The translations under genes and the position numbers were made by a program. A model generated the notes under the pieces. That model saw only the letters and a program-made list of their open reading frames with translations, made no database searches and was not told the DNA's origin. Below are positions 18,616 through 39,363 of a DNA stretch of 50,362 bases, piece after piece; position 1 is the first letter of the stretch; each line of letters starts with the position of its first letter. Source of the stretch: Magnetococcales bacterium (lineage in GTDB: Bacteria > Pseudomonadota > Magnetococcia > Magnetococcales > JADFZT01); the NCBI GenBank assembly GCA_015232395.1, contig JADFZT010000030.1, positions 1-50,362 on the forward strand, read 5' to 3'.

Positions 18616-20511
18616 ATGATCATCAAATCAGTGATAGTTAATGGATATAAAAGCTTAAACGTGGCAAACATTAAGTTTGAAAAATTCACCCGGATACTAG
18701 GGCCGAATAACAGCGGAAAATCAAACCTGATTTCGGCCATTGAGTTTTTTGTTTCCACAAAAACAAAACCTTCTCCACAAGACGTGTTCGTTAACCACAA
18801 ACACAAAAGTCCAATCTGGGTTGAGATCGTTTTTTCTCATTTAACAGCAGACGAAAAAGACACCTTTAAAAAGTATGTGCGGAATGATGGAAGCATAAAG
18901 ATAAGAAAAACAGCAACATTATCTGTTGAAGGGGCAAAAGTTTCCTATAATGGGTACATATCTGAGCCTGCAGAAAAATACCTCAAGGAATCAGAAGCTA
19001 AAAATCTAACCGACAGAGAGGAGATAAAAAAAACACCGCTACAAAATCTGGTTCCAGAAAAAGGAAAACTCACCAAGAAAAAAATCCTGGAGGCACAAGA
19101 ACAGTATATACAAAACAACCATAATGACATTGAGTTTATCGAATCTATTGAGTCTGGGCCTTTTATGGGCCAAATGAATGTTGCTGGCGGATTATTGCCA
19201 GAATTAATAATCATCCCTGCAATACGTGATTTGTCAGAAGAAACAAAAATAAAAGCGACGACATCATTTGGCCGACTACTAACTAGAACCATAAAGGAAA
19301 TGACTGAAAACAATAAAAAATTTCAAGATATTCGAAACCAATTGGATGGTTTGGTTAGAAGTTTGAACTCGAGAGAAGATGATGGTGAAAGTGAGGAAGA
19401 AGAGTTTGCCAATGAGTTGATTGAGTTGGAGAAGGCTCTTGCAAGTGAGCTTATCGATTGGAATGTAAAGGCTCAGATAAAAATCAACCCTCCAGAAATT
19501 GAGAAAATATTTGAACTTGCATCTGAATTGCACTTAGACGATGGTTTATCAACACCAGCTGACAGAAAAGGACATGGACTACAAAGAGCAGTGATTTTCG
19601 CTTTACTTCGAGCATGGTCAAACACTTTGCGAAATGCTAGTGAAAAACAAAAACTTAAAAAGGGTGCCAGCCAAAAAAGATCAGCTTCTGAATCTGTAAT
19701 ATTTGCAATGGAGGAGCCAGAAATATTCCTCCACCCACAGGCACAGAAAAGACTAGCAAAGTCACTTCAAGAAATATCTAAAACTGACGGACACCAAGTT
19801 ATCATCTCAACCCACTCCCCTTCTTTTGTAAACCTTGATTTTTACAAAGAAATAATCATTGTTTCAAAAGAGTATGGGGAAGTTGAATCAAAAATCCGGC
19901 AATGCACTAAGGATTTGTTTGAGGGAGACAGCCATCAGGGAAGAAAAAACAATTTCAATATGGTTCACTGGGTAAACCCTGACCGATCAGAAATGTTTTT
20001 TGCGCGAAAGGTTGTTTTCGTTGAAGGGATAACAGAAAAAGTTGTAATACCTTTTGTGGCTGAACGAATTGGATTGTTTGACCCAAGCATTTCAATCATT
20101 GATTGTGGCTCCAAATTCAATCTCCCCATTTACACTGAAATAGCAAACTCGTTTGATTTTGAATATTTTGTTGTACATGACCAAGATCCACTACCAGAAA
20201 CATGGCCAGACAATTGGAATGAGGACAAGAGGAAGTCGAAAAAAAGAACTTATGAGTTAAATGCTGAAATTGCTGACAGAGTTAATGGTCATAATGGCAA
20301 TGTGATCATGTTTTCTCCAGACTTTGAAGGTAACATTGGTGTCTCCAAAAACCAGGGCGAAAAAAAAGGAAAAGCTCTTGCAGCTCTCGATTTCCTGAAA
20401 GATCTTGATCCAGAGAGCATACCTGACAACCTTTTATACCTTATTGACTATGTGAAAAAAATATATAAACCCGTGCAACCTGAGCAGAAAATGACAACTC
20501 TTCCTGGTTGA
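18616..20511 (+). CDS. OLD-family ATP-dependent nuclease (AAA ATPase plus TOPRIM)
   Basis: A 631-residue OLD (overcoming lysogenization defect) protein. The N-terminal ABC-type ATPase has Walker A GPNNSGKS at 29-36, Walker B FAMEEPEIFLHPQ near 365-377 and the ISTHSPSF H-loop near 398-405. The C-terminal TOPRIM nuclease domain shows VVFVEGITEK (metal-binding Glu, near 465) and VVHDQDPLPE (near 519). OLD nucleases act in phage and mobile DNA defence. Class 2 members pair with a UvrD-like helicase (Gabija), but no helicase gene follows, so this looks like a stand-alone class 1 type. The gene is markedly AT-rich against GC-rich neighbours and its codons favour A/T, which suggests recent transfer. 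AAGGA precedes the ATG. Confidence 0.88.
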   Translation: MIIKSVIVNGYKSLNVANIKFEKFTRILGPNNSGKSNLISAIEFFVSTKTKPSPQDVFVNHKHKSPIWVEIVFSHLTADEKDTFKKYVRNDGSIKIRKTATLSVEGAKVSYNGYISEPAEKYLKESEAKNLTDREEIKKTPLQNLVPEKGKLTKKKILEAQEQYIQNNHNDIEFIESIESGPFMGQMNVAGGLLPELIIIPAIRDLSEETKIKATTSFGRLLTRTIKEMTENNKKFQDIRNQLDGLVRSLNSREDDGESEEEEFANELIELEKALASELIDWNVKAQIKINPPEIEKIFELASELHLDDGLSTPADRKGHGLQRAVIFALLRAWSNTLRNASEKQKLKKGASQKRSASESVIFAMEEPEIFLHPQAQKRLAKSLQEISKTDGHQVIISTHSPSFVNLDFYKEIIIVSKEYGEVESKIRQCTKDLFEGDSHQGRKNNFNMVHWVNPDRSEMFFARKVVFVEGITEKVVIPFVAERIGLFDPSISIIDCGSKFNLPIYTEIANSFDFEYFVVHDQDPLPETWPDNWNEDKRKSKKRTYELNAEIADRVNGHNGNVIMFSPDFEGNIGVSKNQGEKKGKALAALDFLKDLDPESIPDNLLYLIDYVKKIYKPVQPEQKMTTLPG

Positions 20512-35916: not shown

Positions 35917-37455
35917 ATGCGTGAGCCCATGGATATTCATCAACGATTAATCAGACTGAAATCCAACCTGGAGCGTGTCAACCGGGCCTGGACCCATGAC
36001 GACTATGACCAGCTGATGGGTTTTTTCGTCGATATTTTTCCCCAACTCATCGGTGGCCAGCGCTGTTCCATTTTCATCGCCGACCGGGATAGCGAAGAGG
36101 TGTGGCTGAAGTTTGGCACCAACCTCACGGAAAAACAGATCAAGGCCCCCAGAACCGGTTCCATCGTCGGCAAATCCATCAGCACCGGACGGGTCATCAT
36201 CCAAAACAATCTCGACACCCAGGAGGGATATCACTCCGTCACCGACCGCAAGACCGAATTCGTCACCCGCGACCTGATCTGCGTGCCCATCAAAAGCCTC
36301 TTCGATGACACCTATATCGGTGCGGTGGAGGTTCTCAACAAGATTTCCGGTGAATCATTTTCCCAGACCGACGCCAAACTCCTGCAAAGAGCGGTCAAAT
36401 ATCTCTCCCTGGCCATCGAAAGCAACTCCGTCTCCGAAAGAATTTCCACCATTTCCCAGCAGGTGGAAGAGGATATCGAAAAATCCGGGGAGGATCTTTT
36501 CGGCTCCAACCGGGTAATCGCGGAGAGCGATGGCATGCGCAAGGTGATCCAAATCACCCAGCAGGTGGGTGCGCTACCGGTCAATATTTTTATCTCCGGA
36601 GAGAGCGGCACCGGCAAGGAAGTGATCGCCCGGATGGCCCATCATATGGGGGATAAGAGGGGACGCCCGTTCGTCGCTGTCAACTGCTCCTCCATCCCGG
36701 AACAGCTGATGGAGAGTGAATTTTTCGGTCACGAAAAAGGGGCTTTCACCGGCGCGATGAACAGCCGTCAGGGCCGTTTTGAAGAGGCTGAAGGAGGCAC
36801 CCTGTTTTTGGACGAAATTGCCGACATGCCCGCCTCCATTCAACCTAAATTTTTACGGATTCTGCAAGAGATGGAAGGCGCCCGGCTCGGAGGCAACCGA
36901 GTCCGTAAATATAACTTTCGCCTGATCAGCGCCACCTCCCGGGATCTGCGGGGAGAGGTGGAAAAGGGTAAGTTCAGAGAAGATCTTTTCTTCCGCCTTT
37001 TCGCTGTGGATATCGACATCCCCCCCTTGCGGGAGCGGCGGGACGATATTCTACCCCTGGCGTTGATGTTCTTGCGGCGAACCAACGAAAAATTTGAAAA
37101 ACGGGTGGCAGGCTTTTCCCTGGAAACCCTGCAACTCTTCGAGTCCTATTATTGGCCCGGCAACGTCCGCCAGCTGCAACACGAAGTGGAACGCCTGGTG
37201 GCGCTGACACCAAACAATGAAACCATCTCCCCGGAAAGCTGCTCCCAAAAGCTCCTGCCCAGCATGAGCAAAACCAACGAACCCACCTTCGACACCCTCT
37301 CCCTGCCGACCCAACGGAAAAACCTGGAAATCCAGCTCATCAAAAAAGCCCTGAAACGGGCTCGGGGCAATAAAATCAAAGCGGCCCAGATGCTGGAAAT
37401 CACCCGGCAATCCCTGCACAACAAAATCCGCCAATACCAGCTGGAAATGGCCTGA
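35917..37455 (+). CDS. sigma-54-dependent activator with N-terminal GAF domain
   Basis: 512 residues. A GAF sensor domain covers about 25-170, then a short linker, an AAA+ domain with Walker A GESGTGKE (228-235), GAFTGA (275-280) and Walker B GGTLFLDE, and a Fis-type helix-turn-helix at the end (GNKIKAAQMLEITRQSLHNK). The layout is that of NorR, NifA or FhlA, but the GAF residues that would name the signal cannot be judged by eye. It is divergent from the cytochrome c gene and the nap cluster, which makes a nitrogen-oxide or redox signal an attractive guess only. No clear -24/-12 promoter was found nearby. Confidence 0.9.
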   Translation: MREPMDIHQRLIRLKSNLERVNRAWTHDDYDQLMGFFVDIFPQLIGGQRCSIFIADRDSEEVWLKFGTNLTEKQIKAPRTGSIVGKSISTGRVIIQNNLDTQEGYHSVTDRKTEFVTRDLICVPIKSLFDDTYIGAVEVLNKISGESFSQTDAKLLQRAVKYLSLAIESNSVSERISTISQQVEEDIEKSGEDLFGSNRVIAESDGMRKVIQITQQVGALPVNIFISGESGTGKEVIARMAHHMGDKRGRPFVAVNCSSIPEQLMESEFFGHEKGAFTGAMNSRQGRFEEAEGGTLFLDEIADMPASIQPKFLRILQEMEGARLGGNRVRKYNFRLISATSRDLRGEVEKGKFREDLFFRLFAVDIDIPPLRERRDDILPLALMFLRRTNEKFEKRVAGFSLETLQLFESYYWPGNVRQLQHEVERLVALTPNNETISPESCSQKLLPSMSKTNEPTFDTLSLPTQRKNLEIQLIKKALKRARGNKIKAAQMLEITRQSLHNKIRQYQLEMA

Positions 37456-37464
37456 TTACCCTAC

Positions 37465-37492
37465 CCCGGGTTGAATCTCACTTCAACCCGGG
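37465..37492 (+). terminator. Perfect 11-bp hairpin after the sigma-54 activator
   Basis: CCCGGGTTGAA-TCTCAC-TTCAACCCGGG starts nine bases past the stop. The stem is strong but lacks a U-tract (GAAATGG follows), so it may need Rho or act as a 3' end stabiliser. Confidence 0.6.
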
Positions 37493-37688
37493 AAATGGCG
37501 GAAGCCACCCTCCTCTCACCCTGTTTTCTGGACAAACCTTTCCCACATAATGCCCCCAGAACCCACTTCCATGCCCTATCCGCTCAAACCAAGCCGTTAT
37601 TTTTACCCTTATTAAACAATAGATTCAGCTTGACACCCCGCTCACCAAGCCACTATTTATTTTCCGAATACACCCCATGAGTTTGATA

Positions 37689-37737
37689 TTGACAAAAACG
37701 GTACAAGACGTTACATTAGAAAAACACATTGTAACGT
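37689..37737 (+). promoter_or_regulatory. Strong sigma-70 promoter overlapped by an operator-like inverted repeat
   Basis: TTGACA (37689-37694), a 17-base spacer, then TACATT (37712-37717). The arms ACGTTACA (37708-37715) and TGTAACGT (37730-37737) are exact complements with centres 22 bases apart, about two helical turns. The left arm covers the -10 box and the right arm lies in the early transcribed region, a layout suited to repression. The first gene downstream is the 61-residue protein at 37819. Confidence 0.6.
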
Positions 37738-37818
37738 TAAGTTAATTTTTCTCCATCCTGGTGGAATATTTTTTACTAGAGATGGCCATGGAATCCATAC
37801 GCTGCCAAGGGGCAACCA

Positions 37819-38004
37819 ATGGAAAACCGCATCATTTCTCAATCTCAATCTCGATTCCAACCGCACACGCCATTCATCGCCCCCCAAGCGACCTCAGAGC
37901 GGCGCTGTGGCCAGGAACGTCGGAAAGACTCCTTCGTCTTTCGGGATGAGGAAACCGAGCGCCGGGGATTTTTTCAGCGGCGTCAGCACAGTCGGCACGC
38001 CTAA
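37819..38004 (+). CDS. Small Arg-rich protein of 61 residues
   Basis: Unrecognised. The N-terminal third is polar and Gln/Ser-rich; the rest carries repeated charged Arg pairs: SERRCGQERRK, TERRGFFQRR and a HSRHA end. There is no membrane segment or signal peptide. AAGGGG stands 7 bases before the ATG, and a strong promoter with operator-like arms lies about 100 bases upstream (37689-37737), which together argue that it is expressed. The basic ERR/RR pattern suggests binding to nucleic acid or an acidic partner, but that is inference. Confidence 0.55.
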   Translation: MENRIISQSQSRFQPHTPFIAPQATSERRCGQERRKDSFVFRDEETERRGFFQRRQHSRHA

Positions 38005-38106
38005 AAGCTTCACGCTGAACCCTGCCTCATCCATATAATGTATCGACCATCCCCCGAGAGTCTGAAACGAGGGCCGCTCATGTTTTTTTTGTGGCCTCTC
38101 ATTCCC

Positions 38107-39204
38107 TCACCAAGGGGGTAAAAGTCGCCGAAAGCCGTGTAACAGAACCACTATAAAAAACAGAAAATTGCGCAGGGGCAGGAACAAAAAGCCCCCACTC
38201 GATGGAAACCTCTCCTCTCTACCAACCAACCTCCCGGCAAGCACCCGAGCCACCCCCCGCATCCAGACCACACTCCTTGGCCACTCCCACACCTCGTCAA
38301 GCCACTTTTCAGGAATGCCCTCCTCCCCCACACCCGCACCGAGAATTCCCCCCAGGATGGCTGCGGTCGTATCCGTATCCCCTCCCAAAGCGATGATTTC
38401 TCGAATGCCTCGCGGATAATCCCCGGGAAAACGCAGCCAAATCTGCAACACCACCGGCACGGTATGGAGGATGTAACCACTCACCCCTTTGTCACACCCC
38501 AGGCTCTTGGCAAAATGATGGGGCGCCTCCCCCCTCCCGGCACTCTCAACCGCCCCTCTGACCGCTTCCAGAAACGTGTCGGCGCCACTCCCCCGGAGCA
38601 CCCCCGTCAGTTGGGCCAGATAATCCTCTCCGGAAACACTCCCCCCGGAACGAAAGGCCATTGCCGCCGCCAGCGCCACCGCCAAGGCTCCCTGCTCTGC
38701 CAGGGGATCGGTGTGGGTCACCCGGGTGGAGCGTCGCACCAGATCCCGAAGGGTGTCGATATTTTCCCCGTAAGCGACCCCCAAAATCGGCGCCCGCATG
38801 GCCGGACCGTTGCCAGCGGAAAAAACCCCGCTTTTCACCGGTGAAAACCCCAGCCAAAGCTTGATGATCGCCTTCCCTGTGGCCATCCCCACCCCGGCTG
38901 GCAGCCCCATGAGCCAAAATCGCAGCCGCCACCCCAAACTCCGGGAAAAACGATCCCCCTCCCCCTGTGAGCGGATCAAGGCCATGGCCGTCATGCAGGC
39001 GTGTTCGGTATCGTCGGAACAAAACCCCTTGCCGAACAAAAACCGATAGCCGTCATGGTCAGGCTTAAAGCGGGTCTGCCGCCCACGGGAGATCCCCTCC
39101 CAGGGCAACCCCATGGCATCCCCCACCGCAAGCCCCAGCAGAGAACCGGTGATGGCTGCCGAAAGTCCCGCTGAATCTCCCTTGCCGCGATCCGTTTCCC
39201 CCAT
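38107..39204 (-). CDS. ADP-ribosylglycohydrolase family protein with hydrophobic C-terminus
   Basis: 365 residues from the ATG at 39204, chosen because GGAGGAGGGG stands just before it (a reading from 39348 would lack a site). The DraG-like fold is shown by VGDAMGLPWEG (28-38), the di-metal motif SDDTE (63-67) and the second motif GGDTDTTAA near 273. Such enzymes remove ADP-ribose from proteins or metabolites. The last 28 residues are hydrophobic with an Arg-containing end (FLFLPLRNFLFFIVVLLHGF), consistent with a C-terminal membrane anchor, which is unusual for DraG relatives. No ADP-ribosyltransferase partner is seen nearby. It is divergent from the YdjM-like pair. Confidence 0.88.
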   Translation of the reverse strand: MGETDRGKGDSAGLSAAITGSLLGLAVGDAMGLPWEGISRGRQTRFKPDHDGYRFLFGKGFCSDDTEHACMTAMALIRSQGEGDRFSRSLGWRLRFWLMGLPAGVGMATGKAIIKLWLGFSPVKSGVFSAGNGPAMRAPILGVAYGENIDTLRDLVRRSTRVTHTDPLAEQGALAVALAAAMAFRSGGSVSGEDYLAQLTGVLRGSGADTFLEAVRGAVESAGRGEAPHHFAKSLGCDKGVSGYILHTVPVVLQIWLRFPGDYPRGIREIIALGGDTDTTAAILGGILGAGVGEEGIPEKWLDEVWEWPRSVVWMRGVARVLAGRLVGREERFPSSGGFLFLPLRNFLFFIVVLLHGFRRLLPPW

Positions 39205-39363
39205 TTTCCCCTCCTCCATAGTCCCGATACACTCAAAGTCGTCATAAAAATGGAGAACGCCACCCCCCATTTGGGATATCCTGTTGGCAGCCTGGGGCAG
39301 ATAATCCAAAAGCAGCGAACACCTGGGCAACCGCTCTTGGCAAACCAAGGGCGTTCATTCCAT

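Follow-up and report, generated by a model that had tools for sequence, protein, structure and literature searches.

A candidate arginine-rich orphan small frame downstream of a promoter-like site in a Magnetococcales genome

Does the intergenic region between a regulator gene and an ADP-ribosylglycohydrolase gene of a Magnetococcales bacterium encode a small, tightly regulated protein, as an initial annotation of this DNA proposed? We addressed this question in the window, i.e. the whole of one contig (C30; 50,362 nucleotides) from a genome of 4.94 Mb that comprises 170 contigs, and in comparisons that include 60 other genomes, none of which belongs to the family of the source genome.

The locus and its promoter-like site

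The intergenic region (37456-38106) has a + strand regulator gene to its left and a − strand glycohydrolase gene to its right. Of 48 order genomes, 40 contain a match to the regulator at E 1e-100 or better, and 4 contain one to the glycohydrolase at E 1e-20 (own genome included in both counts); nap genes (napA, napD and napF) are situated further left in the window. The features of the locus are as follows, with the basis of each in brackets.

35917-37455, + strand: GAF/sigma-54-activator/Fis-type regulator gene, left flank (family-model matches)
37689-37717, + strand: sigma-70-type promoter-like site TTGACA-N17-TACATT, matching 10/12 (promoter scan; such sites occur at chance count in the window)
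37708-37715, + strand: left arm ACGTTACA, overlapping the -10 hexamer
37730-37737, + strand: right arm TGTAACGT, at about +7 to +14 of the putative start
37807-37812, + strand: AAGGGG, possible ribosome-binding site 6 bases before the ATG (predicted 16S pairing)
37819-38004, + strand: 61-codon ATG frame with 12 Arg, ERRCGQERR and a third ERR (list of open reading frames, codon score and simulations; no credible relatives)
38069-38100, + strand: predicted hairpin whose loop has eight U; it lacks the form of a canonical terminator (fold prediction; not in the terminator scan)
38107-39348, − strand: ADP-ribosylglycohydrolase gene, right flank (family-model match)

A repeat or mobile element was rejected, a 511-bp stretch of the locus being single-copy when searched across its own genome. 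A sigma-54 promoter (TGGCAC-N5-TTGCW) under the neighbouring regulator was also rejected: with up to 2 mismatches allowed, none lies in 37456-38107, and the window has 23 such sites against 28.9 expected. Directly after the regulator gene stands a perfect 11-bp inverted repeat with a 6-base loop and without a T run (37465-37492). Elsewhere in the window, a + strand frame at 48810-49853 matches the MVL mannan-binding family over a short stretch (E 3e-7).

The promoter letters given in the initial annotation are present, with TTGACA at 37689-37694, TACATT at 37712-37717 and a 17-base spacer between them. The site is not the best promoter in the window, as had been claimed: TTGAAA-16-TATAAT at 20508 is the top match (11/12), and sites at 10/12 are at chance level in the whole window (4 vs 3.3, sd 1.8, in 30 simulated windows), while 11 sites at 9/12 occur in its last 20 kb vs 10.2 expected. 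A promoter at 37689-37717 is plausible but ordinary, of the housekeeping type. The 11/12 match lies at the end of an AAA/OLD-like TOPRIM protein gene (18616-20511, + strand), which lies in an AT-rich patch with a GC content of 0.38-0.43.

The paired arms as a candidate operator

The two inverted arms had been described as straddling the promoter at two helical turns. Both arms are present and are spaced 22 bp start to start, but they do not straddle it: the left arm spans -16 to -9 of a putative transcription start at 37724, so that it overlaps the -10 hexamer, and the right arm lies past the start. The arm pair has a single match in the window, where 0.05 would be expected at up to 3 mismatches. 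Inverted repeats of 8 bp (loop up to 22) number 45 in the window vs 29.4 (sd 7.1) in 30 simulated windows; overlap of such a repeat with a 10/12 promoter is seen once in the window vs in none of 25 simulated windows. Among 4000 simulated 245-bp regions with the local composition, 0.3% show such an overlap. The coincidence of promoter and inverted repeat at 37689-37737 is tight and suggestive, though it was chosen post hoc from the whole window. The single-composition simulation ignores AT-rich patches and may understate chance overlaps, because at 9/12 there are nine promoter/repeat overlaps in the real window vs 1.3 simulated.

Repression would fit arms that lie over the -10 hexamer and at about +7 to +14. 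A dedicated repressor, bound to both arms two helical turns apart, could thereby switch off the small-protein promoter, and the low expectation for the arm pair, even with 3 mismatches allowed, favours this explanation. The counts of the arms elsewhere argue against it. The exact pair is single-copy in the 4.94-Mb genome, where near-matches at up to 3 mismatches (3 sites, own included) equal those of a reversed control (3). Across the 48 order genomes, near-matches at up to 2 mismatches are fewer than for the control (10 sites, own included, in 8 of the 48, vs 18), and the arm 8-mers are absent from the regulator loci of all 29 relatives. In genome_contigs, the exact pair occurs in 15 stretches of scattered taxa, about 60 being expected by a hand calculation that assumes 16 fixed bases, 257 Gb and even composition. 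Hence the operator of a regulon, recurring upstream of other genes or of orthologues, was not found in the own genome, the 48 order genomes or the 29 regulator loci. Neither a regulon nor conservation is indicated for the candidate operator, which would leave a single-target repressor; we consider a dedicated repressor of this kind unlikely. The tight regulation claimed in the initial annotation thus draws no support from a single-copy pair whose near-matches are not enriched in the genome or in relatives.

The 61-codon frame and its arginine pattern

The small protein had been introduced as ERR/RR-rich and as having a good ribosome site. An Arg-rich frame of 61 codons does follow AAGGGG, but the ribosome site is only passable: 17% of 730 + strand ATGs equal or better the 16S pairing predicted for it (-6.8 kcal/mol), which is weaker than that of napA (-11.8) and stronger than that of napF (-0.3) in the same computation. 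Of 2000 sequences simulated with the local composition, 70% contain an ATG frame of at least 61 codons. The codon score is intermediate, at 0.12 bits per codon: the 166 gene segments lie at 0.37 (sd 0.17) and the 830 segments read in a wrong frame at -0.16 (sd 0.24); 7% of the former score 0.12 or lower and 15% of the latter 0.12 or higher, the gene distribution being favoured because the 22 hand-chosen training frames of the model also gave test segments. The opposite strand scores about equally (0.11; its 46-codon frame 0.18).

The frame had been described as the only gene that fits. It is the best of the ATG frames that have a ribosome site, and other frames of similar length overlap it (i.e. 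62 codons from GTG at 37761-37949, + strand, and 58 codons from TTG at 37711-37887, − strand). A 134-codon open + strand frame (37634-38038), mostly without a usual start codon and of a length reached in 22% of simulated regions, finds weak matches at E 0.1 in 9 of the 47 other genomes, the best of which (E 0.004) contains two internal stops; a 70-codon − strand frame has no match at E 0.01. A decayed gene was rejected, 12 open frames of the region being without a Pfam match. A known structured RNA was rejected as well (Rfam: 0 at the gathering score in the window and 0 at E 1 in 37440-38120), as was structured RNA in general (folding z of -0.78 for 37724-38092), and there is no tRNA in the window. 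The terminator scan found no + strand terminator-like site in 38004-38107.

The ERR pattern is the one feature not easily given by chance, and it stands out against promoter score and frame length. The in-frame ERR-x3-ERR...ERR arrangement, picked after the protein had been seen, is rare in simulation: the doublet, present once in the window, arose once among 40 simulated windows and never among 1500 simulated local regions, and the triplet arose in none of either set (0/40 and 0/1500). When [DE]RR-x-G-x-[DE]RR was searched as a DNA pattern, in which Ser codons are allowed too, 32 matches in 23 of 48 genomes were obtained vs 21 control matches. Two of the 32 yielded no locus. Among the 30 loci read, the word occurs in evident proteins of the order, being found in the C-terminal tail of one (L075) and in kinase-like linkers of others (L072/L095, L080 and L096; all labels by eye), and at many other loci it lies in short or implausible frames. 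The kinase-like proteins of three related genomes (L072, L080 and L096; label by eye) bear repeat linkers of the form ERR-x-G-x-DRR.

Chance could account for the locus as a whole if it were non-coding intergenic DNA in which a promoter match, an inverted repeat and a 61-codon frame coincide, favoured by a stop-poor stretch that comes after an AT-rich one, any transcript being untranslated. Consistent with this are promoter counts and a frame length that chance would give, the presence of antisense and other frames comparable in length and score, the lack of above-chance DNA similarity to the loci of 32 relatives, and the non-conservation of the frame described below. The ERR doublet and triplet, far rarer in simulation than seen, and a correctly placed, passable ribosome site argue against it. 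We regard non-coding DNA as a possible explanation, somewhat short of probable.

Relatives, preferred reading and known systems

Relatives of the protein had been proposed as a check, and no credible one was found in the 60 other, 48 order or 398 phylum-sampled genomes. The 61-residue protein has no match in Pfam, NCBIfam, PHROGs or PDB, and Pfam gives 0 families both at E 0.1 for this form and at E 1 for a 74-residue form. The 60 other genomes contain no relative at E 0.001. In the 48 order genomes, weak matches at E 10 occur in 30 (own included; best relative E 0.078); the 29 loci inspected are scattered frames, several with stops, none resembling a relative, and the matches in L008, L014 and L024 sit opposite frames reading as PAS domains (label by eye). 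The 398 phylum-sampled genomes yield two matches besides the protein itself at E 0.02, one with an internal stop (E 0.005) and one inside a 741-codon frame (E 0.013), both of which read as unrelated; its 33-residue ERR part finds nothing besides itself at E 0.05. No relative was confirmed in genome_contigs or viral_contigs, and plasmids and phages gave matches of E 1 or worse only. A tblastn match at E 0.075 in L067, partly within a stretch matched by the glycohydrolase query, is taken as chance.

The stretch downstream of the regulator was read in the loci of 29 relatives (with less than 450 bases available in L037, L043, L049 and L056). In 7 of them (L036, L038, L044, L047, L051, L057 and L064) one of the open frames there shows a loose RR pattern, and none resembles the protein. 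The closest in position is a 57-codon frame in L064, which overlaps a 428-codon antiporter-like frame (label by eye). No title concerning this protein was found among the titles and abstract openings obtained by literature search. The initial annotation would be refuted by a lack both of a translation signal and of conservation, and half of this was observed: the frame is unconserved, yet its ribosome site is passable.

On balance, we lean towards an orphan small frame that encodes an expressed small protein, with regulation unproven. Four observations count for it: (i) the coincidence of promoter and arms is tighter than simulated sequences give; (ii) AAGGGG stands 6 bases ahead of the ATG; (iii) the ERR doublet and triplet are rare; and (iv) the same ERR word occurs in evident proteins of the order. 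Counted against it are the lack of a credible relative, frame length and promoter count at chance, the intermediate codon score with the opposite strand about equal, and the absence of a + strand terminator-like site after the frame. Because neither frame nor arms were refound in relatives, we describe it as an ordinary, unproven orphan small gene.

What the analysis establishes is the sequence and placement of the features, the absence of relatives from the searches made and how rarely the ERR pattern arises. The transcription, translation and any regulation that we infer would proceed as follows. RNA polymerase with a sigma-70-type factor would start near 37724, giving a leader of about 95 bases and then a short message, on which the ribosome would use AAGGGG to make a 61-residue basic protein with 12 arginines, seen in this genome only. 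A DNA-binding protein on the arms could cover the -10 and start region and cause repression, to judge from their position. This basic product is probably disordered; its single-sequence fold is uninformative, a low-confidence model (mean pLDDT 67.7, pTM 0.15) that has little secondary structure beyond a single helix of six residues. The likeliest kind of role, putatively, is for the Arg-rich half to bind either nucleic acid or a second protein.

A more elaborate version, in which a lineage-specific Arg-rich small protein stands under a single-target repressor and its ERR repeats are a free-standing form of the linker or tail word of larger order proteins, seems to us very unlikely. If the orphan frame is translated, it would add one more orphan small protein, probably of an order of magnetotactic cocci, with no sign of a new mechanism. 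The lesson of the locus is that promoter score and frame length are each at chance, and that the ERR word stands out.

Compared with known systems, DUF1127 (YjiS-like) proteins are likewise small and Arg-rich, but the 61- and 74-residue forms have no Pfam match at E 0.1 and 1, respectively. The ERR-x-G-x-DRR linkers and tails of larger order proteins have the [DE]RR-x-G-x-[DE]RR word in common with the frame, but there the word forms part of large proteins, internally or at their end, and nothing else aligns. Bacterial orphan small ORF proteins (unnamed) are likewise short, lineage-restricted, basic and without a domain match, and the candidate frame described here may be one of them.
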